From: an uncultured Verrucomicrobia subdivision 3 bacterium
GTDB taxonomy: Bacteria > Verrucomicrobiota > Verrucomicrobiae > Limisphaerales > UBA11358
Assembly: GCA_903921455.1 (NCBI GenBank)
Contig: CAIXPZ010000280.1
Location: 1-9,380 of the forward strand
Direction: 5' to 3'
Length of the DNA: 9,380 nucleotides
Numbering within the stretch: the stretch's first letter is position 1; each line of letters opens with the position of its first letter. The position numbers were made by a program, and so were the translations under genes. The notes beneath the pieces are model-generated. The model saw nothing but the letters and a program-made list of their open reading frames with translations, was not told where the DNA came from and searched no databases. Positions 2,306-6,166 of this stretch are shown here, piece after piece.

Positions 2306-3985
2306 TCATACCCGGTTGAGGGCGCTCAACACGGCGCGCACCGAGGCGAGCTCGATGTTCGTGTCCACGCCCGCGCCCCAGCGCGATTTTCCGTCGGCGG
2401 ATTTGATCTGGATATAGGAGATCGCCGCCGCCGTTTCGCCGGAACTCAAGGCGTGCTCGCTGTAATTGGTGATCTCAAAACGCGGCACACCCGCGGTGGT
2501 GAAACCGTGGACGAGCGCGGCGAGCGGACCGTTGCCCTCGCCTTTGAAGGCGACCGGCTGGCCGGCGCGCAACAACCGGGCCTGACATTTCACGACGCCA
2601 TTCTTGCTTTCGGTTTCAAAGCCGGACAATTGCCAGGGCGTGGTGCGCTCAACGTATTCCTTCCAGAACATCGCCTTGAGCTCCGCACCGCTGACCTCGC
2701 GGCCGAGCCGGTCCACGGCGTCGTTGGCGATCGGGCCGAATTCGCGCTGCATGTCCTTGGGCAGCTCGATGCCGAATTCGCTCTCGAGCAAATAGGCGAC
2801 GCCGCCCTTGCCGGACTGCGAATTGACGCGGATGACCTCGCGATACTCGCGGCCGATGTCGGCCGGATCAATCGTGAGATAGGGAACGTCCCAGAAAATT
2901 TCCGATTTCCGATTGCCGATTGCCGATTTTTTCCCATCCCATTCCGTCAAACCTTTCTTGATGGCGTCCTGATGCGAGCCGCTGAAGGCGGTGAAGACGA
3001 GCTCGCCCGCGTAAGGCTGGCGCGGCGGCACGGTCATGCCGGTGCTGCGCTCATAGACATCGATGATCGAAGCGAGATTGGAGAAATCCAATTGGGGATC
3101 GATGCCGTGCATGTAGAGATTCAACGCCACGGTGACGATGTCCAAATTGCCCGTGCGCTCGCCGTTGCCGAACAGCGTGCCCTCGACGCGATCCGCGCCG
3201 GCGAGCAGGCCAAGTTCGGTCGCGGCCACGCCGGTGCAACGGTCGTTGTGCGTGTGCAAGCTGATGATCAGCGAATCGCGGTGCTTAATGTTCGTGCACA
3301 TCCATTCGATCTGGTCCGCGTAGACATTCGGCATGGCGACCTCGACGGTGTCCGGCAGATTCAAAATCATTTTATGCTGGGGCGTGGGCTGCCACACGTC
3401 CATGACGGCTTCGGAAATCTCCCTGGCATATTCCACCTCGGTCATGCTGAAACTTTCCGGCGAATACTGGAGCATCACTTCGGTGCCCTTGAGCCGGGGC
3501 AAACGGTCCTTGATCATCTGCGCGCCTTTGACGGCGATGGCTTTGATCTCGTCCTTCGACTTGCCGAACACCACGCGGCGCTGCGCGGGCGACGTGGAAT
3601 TATACATGTGGATGATGACCTTCTTCGCGCCGACGAGCGACTCGACGGTGCGCTCGATCAGATCCTCGCGCGCCTGCACGAGCACCTGGAGCCACACGTC
3701 ATCCGGCACGCGCTTCTCCTCGATGAGCCGGCGGTTGAAGGTGAACTCGGTGTTCGACGCGGACGGAAAGCCGACTTCGATCTCCTTGAAGCCGATTTTG
3801 ACGAGCGTCTGGAACAATTCCAATTTCTGCGACACGTTCATCGGCACGGCGAGCGCCTGGTTGCCATCGCGCAAGTCAACGCTGGCCCAGCGGGGCGCGG
3901 CGGTGAGGACACGGTTGGGCCACTGGCGGTTCGGCAAGGGCACGGGCGGAAACGCGCGGTATTTCGATGACGGGTCTTTTTGCAT
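2306..3985 (-). CDS. leuA: 2-isopropylmalate synthase
   Basis: LeuA condenses acetyl-CoA with 2-oxoisovalerate, the committed step of leucine synthesis. The 559-residue product belongs to the longer yeast/actinobacterial-type LeuA group, judging by its length and its N-terminus (PRWASVDLRDGNQAL, 31-45). The HMGL-like TIM barrel carries the catalytic R39-D40, the metal-binding HTHND (244-248) and GNGERTGN (273-280). VNSQSGKGG (387-395) is a family signature linking to the C-terminal LeuA dimer domain (about 450-559), where leucine feedback normally acts. The ATG at 3985 lies 43 bases after the attenuator T-run. No Shine-Dalgarno sequence is evident, only a purine-rich AAGAAAG. Oddity: residues 353-362 (around SAIGNRKSEI) are encoded by a 7-bp tandem repeat and lengthen a variable loop just before the conserved WDVPYL. 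Confidence 0.97.
   Translation of the reverse strand: MQKDPSSKYRAFPPVPLPNRQWPNRVLTAAPRWASVDLRDGNQALAVPMNVSQKLELFQTLVKIGFKEIEVGFPSASNTEFTFNRRLIEEKRVPDDVWLQVLVQAREDLIERTVESLVGAKKVIIHMYNSTSPAQRRVVFGKSKDEIKAIAVKGAQMIKDRLPRLKGTEVMLQYSPESFSMTEVEYAREISEAVMDVWQPTPQHKMILNLPDTVEVAMPNVYADQIEWMCTNIKHRDSLIISLHTHNDRCTGVAATELGLLAGADRVEGTLFGNGERTGNLDIVTVALNLYMHGIDPQLDFSNLASIIDVYERSTGMTVPPRQPYAGELVFTAFSGSHQDAIKKGLTEWDGKKSAIGNRKSEIFWDVPYLTIDPADIGREYREVIRVNSQSGKGGVAYLLESEFGIELPKDMQREFGPIANDAVDRLGREVSGAELKAMFWKEYVERTTPWQLSGFETESKNGVVKCQARLLRAGQPVAFKGEGNGPLAALVHGFTTAGVPRFEITNYSEHALSSGETAAAISYIQIKSADGKSRWGAGVDTNIELASVRAVLSALNRV
2902..2929. repeat. Four tandem 7-bp units inside leuA
   Basis: On the plus strand the sequence reads CCGATTT, CCGATTG, CCGATTG, CCGATTT: four heptamers in perfect register. 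On the coding strand this yields the residues SAIGNRKSE in a surface-type loop of LeuA. Such 7-bp tracts normally occur between genes, and one in an essential enzyme is unusual. The frame is kept and the conserved blocks on both sides are intact, so the enzyme is probably functional. Confidence 0.85.
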
Positions 3986-4027
3986 GATGCTTGGCTTTCT
4001 TGATTATTGCCGTCCGGCGGTCAGGTT

Positions 4028-4063
4028 AAAACAAAAAACCCACCGCCTTGACGGCAGTGGGTT
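4028..4063 (-). terminator. Intrinsic terminator (attenuator) in the leuA leader
   Basis: Read on the minus strand, AACCCACTGCC (4063-4053) pairs with GGCGGTGGGTT (4047-4037) around the loop GTCAA. This is 11 base pairs with a single G-U pair, followed by TTTTTTGTTTT. It lies between the leader peptide stop and the leuA ATG, so it must be passed to express leuA. Together with the competing stem upstream, it acts as the off-state of an attenuator. Confidence 0.9.
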
Positions 4064-4098
4064 GATAAATTCCTGTGAACGCTCAAAACCCGACTGCC
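4053..4098 (-). promoter_or_regulatory. Antiterminator pairing of the leuA leader
   Basis: GGCAGTCGGGTT (minus strand, 4098-4087), which overlaps the last codons of the leader peptide, is complementary to AACCCACTGCC (4063-4053), the 5' arm of the terminator. The match is 11 Watson-Crick pairs with one bulged C, at least as good as the terminator stem. If a ribosome stalls at the upstream leucine codons, this stem can form and block the terminator. If it runs to the stop codon, it covers the arm and the terminator forms. The mechanism is inferred from the classical his/leu attenuation scheme; the pairing itself is visible. Confidence 0.82.
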
Positions 4099-4148
4099 GC
4101 GCCGGTCAGCAGCGCGCTCGTAAGCAGCAGGTTCCAATAACGATTCAT
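4083..4148 (-). CDS. leuA leader peptide, 21 residues, leucine-rich
   Basis: The frame starts at ATG 4148 and ends with TGA at 4083-4085. The product begins MNRYWNLLLTSALL and ends TGAAVGF. Leucines occupy positions 7-9 and 13-14 (CTG CTG CTT and CTG CTG), giving two stall points. The peptide ends 19 bases before the terminator stem, and its codons 17-21 supply the 5' arm of the antiterminator. It is therefore a regulatory peptide whose translation senses charged leucyl-tRNA. The promoter -10 lies only nine bases before the ATG, so the mRNA would be nearly leaderless, and no Shine-Dalgarno sequence is present. Codon 5 is Trp and codon 4 Tyr, which may be incidental. Confidence 0.82.
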   Translation of the reverse strand: MNRYWNLLLTSALLTGAAVGF

Positions 4149-4157
4149 CGAGGGCAG

Positions 4158-4184
4158 AGTATACGCCGGCGTCGGCGGGGTCAA
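4158..4184 (-). promoter_or_regulatory. Promoter of the leuA leader
   Basis: On the minus strand TTGACC (plus 4179-4184) and TATACT (plus 4158-4163) each match the sigma-70 consensus at five of six positions. The 15-base spacing is shorter than ideal. The -10 ends nine bases before the leader ATG, giving a predicted start site within a few bases of the initiation codon. Confidence 0.65.
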
Positions 4185-4290
4185 GCGCGGGAAGCGCGGG
4201 CGGCCCCGACTGCCGCAGATTGTGACACCCCGTCCCGATAGCGGTCAGTGCCCCCACCCCGCGGGGGCCGCCGCCGCGCCCTGAACTTAT

Positions 4291-4296
4291 TATAAT
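4291..4296 (+). promoter_or_regulatory. Candidate prepilin promoter (-10 only)
   Basis: A perfect TATAAT sits in a small AT-rich island (4283-4312) within GC-rich sequence, upstream of the prepilin gene and divergent from the leuA promoter. The bases where a -35 should be are GC-only and unlike TTGACA, so it would need an activator or another sigma factor. If it is real, the prepilin mRNA has a leader of about 155 bases. The rest of the gap 4185-4457 shows no gene. Confidence 0.4.
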
Positions 4297-4330
4297 GACA
4301 GTAATTTAAACTACTGGCGGAACAACGGCC

Positions 4331-4354
4331 CGGCGCGCCCGGTTTGGCGCGCCG
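4331..4354. repeat. GC-rich hairpin in the prepilin upstream region
   Basis: CGGCGCGCC (4331-4339) and GGCGCGCCG (4346-4354) form a perfect 9-bp stem around CGGTTT. Each arm contains the self-complementary octamer GGCGCGCC. The hairpin lies 104 bases before the prepilin start, inside the presumed mRNA leader. It has no T-run; it may stabilise the message or be a chance palindrome. Confidence 0.45.
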
Positions 4355-4457
4355 CCTGCTGGGACGGCGGCGCTGTCGGCACAGGCAATCAGTGAACACA
4401 TCATACCAACACAACCCGCCTGGGCCCCGTTCACGCAGCCAGACGGAAACAACACAT

Positions 4458-4829
4458 ATGAAAACAAGCAGACCCAGCAATCCCGCCCGCCGAGCCGGCT
4501 TCACGCTCGTGGAAATCATGATCGTCGTGGCCATCATCGGCCTGCTGGCCGCCATCGCCATCCCCAACCTGGTGCGGGCGCGCGCCACCAGCCAGATGAA
4601 TGCCTGCATCAACAACCTGTCCAAGTATTACGCCGCCAAGCAGCAGTGGGCGATCGAACATGGAAAGCTCAGCACCGACGTGCCGGGGTGGAATGATTTG
4701 ATGCCCTACGTGAAGGCGGACAAAAACGGCAACGGCGTGGTCTGCCCCGCCGGCGGCGCCTACACGTTCCTGGCCGTCAACACCAACGACGTCTGCTCCC
4801 TGGCGAGCATCGGCCACGCCATGCCCTAA
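4458..4829 (+). CDS. Short type IV prepilin / pseudopilin
   Basis: The 123-residue protein is cut by prepilin peptidase after G14 in RRAG-FTLVEIMIVVAIIGLL. The mature protein starts with F15, has the invariant glutamate at mature position 5 (E19), and has a hydrophobic N-terminal helix to about residue 36. The mature part is only 109 residues, small for a major pilin. Cysteines at 50, 96 and 113, in CPAGGAYTF and VCSLASIGH, resemble the tail of short pilin-like proteins common in Verrucomicrobia and Planctomycetes. I chose the ATG at 4458, with GGAA nine bases upstream, over the longer frame because it gives the usual short basic leader. It is the only recognised plus-strand gene in the left two thirds of the window. 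No assembly genes are adjacent, so pilus and type II secretion roles cannot be told apart. Confidence 0.9.
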   Translation: MKTSRPSNPARRAGFTLVEIMIVVAIIGLLAAIAIPNLVRARATSQMNACINNLSKYYAAKQQWAIEHGKLSTDVPGWNDLMPYVKADKNGNGVVCPAGGAYTFLAVNTNDVCSLASIGHAMP

Positions 4830-4948: not shown

Positions 4949-5428
4949 TCAGCCGATGAAGGCCGCGTGGACGGCCTTGACCGCCGCCTCGGCCTTGGCG
5001 AGGTCGATGACGACGGAGATCTTGATCTCGCTGGTGGAGATCAAGTCGATGTTGATGCCCTCGTTGGCGAGCGTTTCAAACAGCTTGCCGGCGACGCCGG
5101 TGTGCGATTTCATGCCGACGCCGACGATGGACAGCTTGCCGATGGACTCGGCGGTGATGGCCTCGCGGAAGCCGACCTCGGGTTGCAAGCCCGCGATGAC
5201 CTTCTGCGCCTTGAGCAGATCCGGCTTGTCGGCGGTGAAGGAGACGTCGGTGGCCGGCGTGCCGTTGCCGTGGCTGATGTTCTGGACGATCATGTCCACG
5301 TTGACGGTCGCCTCGCCGAGCGCCTTGAAAATCTTCGCGGCCATGCCCGGCTTGTCCGGCACGCCGACGAGCGTGATCTTGGCCTGATTCTTGTCGAGCG
5401 CGACGCCGCGGACGACGACGCCTTCCAT
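4949..5428 (-). other. Possible internal start for a LysC beta subunit
   Basis: In Corynebacterium and Bacillus, lysC contains an in-frame internal start that makes a small ACT-only subunit, giving an alpha2beta2 enzyme. Here an ATG at 5428 (M247, sequence MEGVVVRGVALDKNQAK) falls at the same place as the known Corynebacterium start. It is preceded by a purine-rich GAAAGAAGAAACG. The product would be 159 residues. The position is suggestive, but the initiation signal is weak. Confidence 0.4.
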
Positions 5429-6166
5429 GCTTTTCGTTTCTTCTTTCACAATCGTTCCTGGGTTATCATTGAGGCTGGAGCGGACCTCGAACACGACTCC
5501 AAATTTCTTGGCAAATTCCACCGAGCGGCTCTGCATCACCTTGGCGCCGAGGCTGGCGAGCTCGAGCATCTCGTCGTAGGAAATCTCGGAAAGCTTCTTC
5601 GCGGTCGGCACGATGCGCGGGTCGGTGGTGTAGACGCCGTCCACGTCCGTGTAAATCTGGCAGAGGTCGGCCTTGAGCGCGGCCGCGAGGGCGATGGCGG
5701 TCAGGTCGGAGCCGCCGCGGCCGAGCGTGGTGATCTGGCCCTCGCGGGTCTCGCCCTGAAAGCCGGCGACGATGACGACGTTGCCGGCATTGAGCGCGGC
5801 GTGCACCTGCTTGGGCGTGATGTTATGGATCTTGGCCTTGGTATGGACGCCATCCGTGACGATGCCCGCCTGGGCGCCGGTCATCGAAATCGCGGGCACG
5901 CCGATGGTCTGCAGGGCGATGGCGGTGAGGGCGATGGTCTGCTGCTCGCCGGTGGCGAGGAGCATGTCCATCTCGCGCTCGCTGGGCAGCGGGGCGATGT
6001 CCTTCGCCAATTTGATCAAGCCATCGGTCACGCCGCTCATCGCCGAGACGACGACGACGACGGAGTCGCCGCGCGCCCGGTAGGCCGCCACGCGCCGGGC
6101 GACGTTCTGGATGCGGCCGGTGTTGCCGACCGACGTGCCGCCGTATTTCTGAACAATCAATGCCAT
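4949..6166 (-). CDS. lysC: Aspartate kinase
   Basis: The enzyme phosphorylates L-aspartate, the first step towards lysine, threonine, methionine and diaminopimelate. The 405-residue product has the usual length of a monofunctional kinase. The N-terminal kinase domain (1-240) shows KYGGTSVG (7-14), SAMSGVTD (41-48), the TTLGRGGSD loop (146-154) and TDVDGVYTTDPR (173-184). Two ACT domains follow: the first begins at KITLVGVPDKPGM (263-275) and the second at KLSIVGVGMKSHTG (344-357). They are the normal site of lysine and/or threonine feedback. The ATG at 6166 has no Shine-Dalgarno sequence. The gene lies 127 bases after the adenosyltransferase gene, so it is probably separately transcribed. The assignment is firm. 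Confidence 0.97.
   Translation of the reverse strand: MALIVQKYGGTSVGNTGRIQNVARRVAAYRARGDSVVVVVSAMSGVTDGLIKLAKDIAPLPSEREMDMLLATGEQQTIALTAIALQTIGVPAISMTGAQAGIVTDGVHTKAKIHNITPKQVHAALNAGNVVIVAGFQGETREGQITTLGRGGSDLTAIALAAALKADLCQIYTDVDGVYTTDPRIVPTAKKLSEISYDEMLELASLGAKVMQSRSVEFAKKFGVVFEVRSSLNDNPGTIVKEETKSMEGVVVRGVALDKNQAKITLVGVPDKPGMAAKIFKALGEATVNVDMIVQNISHGNGTPATDVSFTADKPDLLKAQKVIAGLQPEVGFREAITAESIGKLSIVGVGMKSHTGVAGKLFETLANEGINIDLISTSEIKISVVIDLAKAEAAVKAVHAAFIG

Follow-up and report, generated by a model that had tools for sequence, protein, structure and literature searches.

The leuA gene in a 9,380-nucleotide stretch of DNA from an uncultured bacterium of Verrucomicrobia subdivision 3 (this whole stretch is called the window below) is very probably controlled by a classical transcription attenuator of the ribosome-mediated kind, with charged tRNA-Leu as its signal, a reading to which we assign a probability of about 0.92. 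By its anatomy the element is a classical attenuator. The reading draws on computed leader conservation, covarying stems, promoter-to-start geometry and folds of free RNA, from which we infer the transcription start site, termination and the response to leucine. What is new is the bacterial group, the order-wide conservation, the presence of one element before two types of leuA and the combination of a probably leaderless layout with a full terminator and antiterminator before leuA. Classical amino-acid attenuation, probably leaderless, is hereby placed at order level in Verrucomicrobiota, and a covariance model of the element, R1, is supplied.

The window leuA encodes a protein with the Pfam domains HMGL-like, IPMS_D2 and LeuA_dimer; it exceeds the TIGR00970 cut-off and is 84-89% identical to records named 'Verrucomicrobia subdivision 3' or Limisphaerales. 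On the same strand and 3' of leuA lie genes for a DUF1573/cytochrome protein and a radical SAM/BATS protein, and within the window no other leu genes follow leuA. On the other side, a pilin-like gene with an N-terminal methylation motif diverges from leuA and separates it from an aspartokinase-like gene.

Table 1. Positions of leuA, its neighbours and the parts of the attenuator in the window
Feature	Coordinates	Strand	Basis
leuA (2-isopropylmalate synthase, TIGR00970 yeast type)	2306..3985	minus	Pfam and TIGR00970 score
T-run TTTTGTTTTA, 3' of the terminator	4027..4036	minus	
Region 4 GGCGGTGGGTT, terminator 3' arm	4037..4047	minus	
Region 3 AACCCACTGCC, terminator 5' arm, antiterminator partner of region 2	4053..4063	minus	
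Leader ORF MNRYWNLLLTSALLTGAAVGF*, 21 codons, probably leaderless	4083..4148	minus	homologous leaders in the order
Region 2 GGCAGTCGGGTT, codons 17-21, partner of region 1 or 3	4087..4098	minus	
Leu codons 13-14 (CTG CTG), second run	4107..4112	minus	occlusion folds
Leu codons 7-9 (CTG CTG CTT), first regulatory run	4122..4130	minus	occlusion folds
Region 1, 5' arm of leader self-stem 1:2	4124..4134	minus	fold and synonymous-codon control
-10 region, TATACT 4163-4158 (spacer 15) or TACTCT 4161-4156 (spacer 17)	4156..4163	minus	
-35 element TTGACC	4179..4184	minus	best-scoring -35 starts TTGA in 92/113 of the order sample
Pilin-like gene	4458-4829	plus	
Aspartokinase-like gene	4949-6166	minus	

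An initial annotation of the window had described a 21-codon leader with leucine at codons 7-9 and 13-14, an 11-bp terminator with a long T-run, and a competing 11-bp stem broken by one bulged base. The coordinates and codon numbers of the leader were reproduced, as was the intrinsic terminator at 4063-4037, which consists of 11 pairs (-20.3 kcal/mol) followed by TTTTGTTTT and begins 19 nt after the stop codon. The competing stem was found again as antiterminator 2:3, in which region 2 pairs with the terminator 5' arm over 11 bp with one bulged C. The part overlooked by that annotation is stem 1:2, in which leader nt 15-25, at the first leucine run, pair with region 2 and enclose an inner hairpin; the folding energy of leader nt 1-64 is -24.1 kcal/mol. 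This stem completes the classical set of 1:2, 2:3 and 3:4. A search of Rfam gave no match in the window at gathering score. The seven matches at E 0.67-6.3 within 3980-4250 were all far below their cut-offs and contained no amino-acid operon leader (one was the Pseudomonas rnk leader, at 15.3 bits versus a cut-off of 55), and no amino-acid leader family was among the matches at E<=10. A T-box was rejected for want of an Rfam match.

In the proposed mechanism, transcription would start at or within a few nt of the leader start codon and, because the transcript would begin at or near this codon, a ribosome would load at its 5' end without a Shine-Dalgarno site. When leucine is ample, the ribosome would reach the stop codon and cover region 2, allowing the 3:4 terminator to form and giving a short RNA of ~110-120 nt. 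When leucine is scarce, it would stall at leucine codons 7-9 or 13-14 and cover region 1; regions 2 and 3 would then pair, the terminator would be blocked and RNA polymerase would enter leuA. An untranslated leader would fold on itself through 1:2, favouring termination.

Folding was performed on ribosome-free RNA only, with an assumed footprint of 12 nt past the A-site codon and 10 nt past the stop codon. With this footprint, a stall in the first leucine run gave 2:3 in 111 of 114 folds, and a ribosome on the stop codon gave the terminator in 114/114. For the window, a ribosome stalled at codon 7, 8, 9 or 13 left 12-13 of the last 24 bases of the leader in 2:3, stalls at codons 14 and 15 kept 9 and 7 antiterminator bases, a stall at codon 16 left 4 bases and one at codon 18 none; both leucine runs are thus usefully placed. 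Folds with no ribosome contained 1:2 (6 or more bases) in 105/114 cases, and at least six bases of the leader end were also paired with region 3 in 65/114, which blurs the protector role of 1:2. When the entire window leader as far as leuA was folded, the minimum-energy structure lacked the terminator. In this full-leader fold the terminator 3' arm pairs with AACCTGACCGCC just downstream (within 4053-4010, minus strand), a pairing that replaces the terminator and can form only in read-through RNA.

Conservation was analyzed in the order of G001, the genome of one of the closest leuA relatives (L001). Among 293 sampled genomes of this order, leuA was present at E<=1e-150 in 146; upstream DNA was taken from 130 of these (16 were left out, the start being missing or not fetched), which together with the window made 131 regions. 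A simple scan identified both leader and terminator in 116/131, a terminator in 120/131 and a candidate leader in 124/131, some of the latter implausible. Of the 15 scan misses, R1 recovered seven (L091, L105, L143, L165, L168, L206 and L209), the match being partial in L091 and L105 being cut at its 5' end. Neither scan nor R1 detected an element in 8/131 regions (L109, L172, L173, L181, L182, L188, L195 and L216). Removal of L199 and L202, with long leader-to-terminator distances of 68 and 32 nt, reduced the 116 to 114 sequences, in which this distance is 15-26 nt, a range narrowed by dropping these two. The leaders of the order follow a common pattern of about NLxLLLxxALLxxAAVGF, and the T-run hardly varies across the alignment. 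On average they carry 6.3 leucines (114 leaders), and the five of 21 in the window, held at first to be unusual, are indeed below this mean, if only slightly. Leucine accounts for 28% of leader residues versus 9% in six window genes, a contrast that is partly built in because leaders were picked partly by leucine content. As a side observation, CTT represents 145/714 leucine codons in the 114 leaders versus 6/198 in the six window genes; this rare codon may sharpen starvation sensing.

Covariation was measured on alignment A1, which holds 79 of 82 non-redundant sequences (L199, L202 and L207 removed). In the terminator stem 97.9% of cells were paired, and in antiterminator 2:3 95.3%. Compared with shuffles, above which kinship alone can lift related sequences, cells changed on both sides numbered 36 versus 7.2 in the terminator and 24 versus 2.1 in the antiterminator, the latter value being reached by 0/500 shuffles; pairs with a two-sided change numbered 4 versus 2.5 (reached by 25/500 shuffles) and 4 versus 1.1 (0/500), respectively. 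With slid partners, controls that retain the kinship, pairing was still well below, falling to 39-61% for the terminator and 36-73% for the antiterminator. All six inner pairs of 2:3 were kept in 57/79 sequences and at least five in 74/79, and the bulge position was a C in 49/79. Relative to the mean of random synonymous codons, the leader self-fold was more stable in 99/114 sequences (mean z -1.1) and the 2:3 duplex in 106/114 (mean z -0.9), both modest shifts. Alignment of related leuA upstream regions thus revealed a conserved leader frame and two conserved stems, so that the element came through the test of conservation; the proposal first made from the window, that a verrucomicrobial leuA is under leucine attenuation, is now backed by leader and stem conservation and by the leuA relatives.

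The initial annotation had also pointed to a near-consensus promoter and to a nearly leaderless ORF. The promoter is only partly as described, being weaker: its best hexamers, TTGACC and TATACT, are 15 bp apart, and a scan requiring a 16-18 bp spacer listed no promoter. Read as TTGACC-N17-TACTCT-N7-ATG, with 7 nt from the -10 to the leader ATG, the window has the same geometry as its relatives. The promoter test covered 113 of the 114 sequences (one was left out, its upstream DNA being too short), and the promoter had played no part in choosing the leader starts. The -10 of the best promoter ends 6 nt (50/113) or 7 nt (27/113) before the leader start codon; a start codon 6-7 nt past the -10 was thus found in 77/113 sequences versus 3/113 in shuffles, a distance that the promoter score does not favour. 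The mean promoter score was 7.8 versus 6.0 in shuffles, and 71/113 leader promoters had a 17-bp spacer, a count partly built in because the score favours 17 bp. An SD-like 4-mer lay ahead of the leader in 7/114 sequences, and 89 of the 114 leaders start with GTG and 25 with ATG. This -10-to-start geometry places the predicted transcription start at or adjacent to the leader start codon, and on these sequence grounds the leader is probably translated from a leaderless transcript. The nearly leaderless layout therefore holds for the window; its description as unusual does not, the layout being common in the order and no oddity of the window copy.

When R1 was run against the sampled genomes of the order, 223/293 gave matches at E<=1e-12, up to 78 of these genomes having supplied R1's own sequences, and 70/293 gave none at this threshold. 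In a sample of the phylum, 8/387 genomes had matches at E<=1e-6; the only strong one (G047) is shared with the order sample, the remaining seven being at 5.7e-8 or weaker. Twenty genomes were then chosen in which R1 matched away from a window-type leuA or matched twice. Their 23 strong matches lay directly before a same-direction leuA in 19 cases and at contig ends in four. Five of the 23 preceded a window-type leuA and 14 a protein 25-28% identical to it, a 14:5 ratio that is no frequency because the genomes were chosen non-randomly; typing of three among these 14 put each above the cut-off of TIGR00973 (leuA_bact). Two genomes, G129 (L279, L298) and G068 (L284, L299), carry both leuA types, each with a leucine leader and a terminator. 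The occurrence of one element before two leuA types suggests that the regulation was kept while the enzyme differs. Weak matches (E 1e-4 to 1e-7), many of which span the terminator only, were not taken as copies.

Six weaker R1 matches (L300-L305) have Val-rich leaders such as MISTFVQVTLLVVVVVGGAAGSCRR* in the same layout, and tblastn placed all six at an ilvB gene. The ilvB copies of five of these loci are 66-70% identical to that of L303; L303 and L304 are above the TIGR00118 cut-off and L302, a partial protein, is just below it. Fifty-eight genomes yielded 28 ilvB loci, one of them (in G050) a place already known as an R1 match. Under a loose rule, 20 of the 28 have a Val-rich leader; it is absent from the other eight, one of which has almost no upstream sequence. 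Eleven of the 20 Val-leader loci combine TTGAC with a start 7-9 nt past the -10. The Val-rich ilvB leader with its terminator (L300-L305 and L315-L342) is probably leaderless as well.

Other explanations were weighed against attenuation by charged tRNA-Leu. The hairpin and T-run could be the ordinary terminator of an upstream unit, with the leader ORF arising by chance or encoding an independent small protein. Taken alone, the hairpin is indeed a generic strong terminator: 3700-4600 contains three terminator-like sites versus 1.1 expected from shuffles, two of the three being the leuA hairpin, one nested inside the other; on inspection of its sequence, the peptide also resembles a short hydrophobic signal sequence. 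However, the next gene upstream, the pilin-like gene, is on the opposite strand, a promoter-like site belonging to the leader lies at a fixed distance from it and, the two outliers having been dropped, the leader stands 15-26 nt ahead of the terminator in all 114 sequences. As region 2 moreover covaries with the terminator 5' arm, we consider this the least probable of the explanations.

The conserved AAVGF-like C-terminal end of the leader, and the related leader before ilvB, a gene common to the three branched-chain amino acids, could instead indicate that the same stems respond to a signal other than leucine, such as the nascent leader peptide itself or the general translation rate. Such a signal is very unlikely, given that the end is conserved because the codons of region 2 must pair and that the ilvB cousin has valine runs where the leucine runs stand, as an amino-acid sensor would. 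A slightly more remote prospect still is that the element acts on leuA translation or via Rho, the terminator being secondary. Pointing to it are leuA leaders in other Verrucomicrobiota that lack a T-run and have a C/T-rich stretch before leuA, and the actinobacterial LEU element, for which classical attenuation was judged unlikely by the authors (PMC1262725); yet in the window the T-run, near-invariant across the order, ends ~40 nt before leuA, and leuA has no SD-like 4-mer before it.

Ribosome-mediated transcription attenuation thus remains the preferred reading, and it can be set beside known systems. The enterobacterial leu (leuL) and his attenuators consist of a leader with runs of regulatory codons, mutually exclusive 1:2, 2:3 and 3:4 stems and an intrinsic terminator. 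The window has the same anatomy of leader runs, stems and terminator; it differs in that the leader of the order is probably leaderless and mostly GTG-started and, compared with the enterobacterial leu system, in that no other leu genes stand behind leuA. Leaderless cysteine attenuators reportedly exist in mycobacteria, in work ascribed to Canestrari in 2020. Streptomyces lividans has leaderless leucine leader peptides, LeuL1 (leuA) and LeuL2 (leuS), and TrpL1 and IlvL are leaderless also; LeuL2 has a hairpin and a U-stretch behind it, and LeuL1 lacks a typical Rho-independent terminator (PMC8079986), whereas the window combines leader, antiterminator and terminator before leuA. The actinobacterial LEU element resembles the window in having a uORF with a leucine run ahead of leuA; it differs in being a pseudoknot, with a base stem formed between the leucine codons and the leuA Shine-Dalgarno box (PMC1262725). 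In the order, an SD-like 4-mer, the partner in that base stem, precedes leuA in 8/114 sequences. Campylobacter jejuni LeuL is likewise a leucine leader before leuA (leuABCD), with 28 aa compared with the 21 codons of the window, five rare leucine codons near its C-terminus and an RNA that ends shortly past the stop codon; the similar leaders predicted for other Epsilonproteobacteria include a ribosome binding site (PMC3847290). The Sinorhizobium meliloti trpL attenuator RNA has its 5' end at the leader ATG, a leaderless attenuation like that proposed here, and differs in its amino acid, tryptophan, in its target, trpE(G), and in its unrelated sequence (PMC7298713). A search of the open-access literature, most subscription literature being outside its scope, found no described case of verrucomicrobial attenuation, in agreement with what had been said when the element was first noticed.

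Outside the order, leuA leaders differ from the order's leader. In the phylum, 59 of 60 leuA loci were examined (L272 was not placed). The word CGACTTA recurs in leuA leaders from records named Opitutaceae and Verrucomicrobiaceae and from further genomes of the phylum; loci with CGACTTA upstream of leuA are L008-L010, L013-L015, L019-L022, L025, L026, L029 and L076, with further ones forming part of L217-L253 and of L343-L370. It is often read as ALRL followed by T or S, and in many loci as Leu-Arg-Leu followed by Ser, Thr or Ile in a short ORF. The CGACTTA leaders of other Verrucomicrobiota that were inspected have a hairpin but no T-run. The C+T content before leuA is 62% in 25 CGACTTA-type loci versus 47% past the order's terminator, a comparison uncontrolled for genome composition. 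In Alphaproteobacteria, CGACTTA was found upstream of leuA in 20/30 loci, where shuffled neighbouring DNA gives an expectation of ~1.5%. The CTT-A core was found in three of four actinobacterial copies (L040, L066 and L075; not L077). In the loci tested outside the order, no Rfam family covered the leader regions at gathering score.

We tentatively raise, as a rather unlikely reading, that the window leader represents, in one lineage, an ancient leuA uORF with the core CTN-(CGA or CTN)-CTT-A, translated Leu-Arg/Leu-Leu-Ser/Thr/Ile, whose outputs would differ by group: an intrinsic terminator in the order, a hairpin with a C/T-rich stretch (perhaps for Rho) in other Verrucomicrobiota, the LEU element in Actinobacteria and some further device in Alphaproteobacteria. 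Whether one sensing core is common to the leuA leaders of distant phyla thereby becomes a testable comparative question. Nine of the 20 alphaproteobacterial CGACTTA loci hold the word at least twice, with a spacing of mostly 147-189 nt. Ahead of leuA in four loci from other genomes of the phylum (L266, L274, L275 and L276) stands another leucine leader, for example MKRAFNNLLLGLLLTGKDPVEAVCL in L274, accompanied by a strong hairpin and a T-run of its own.
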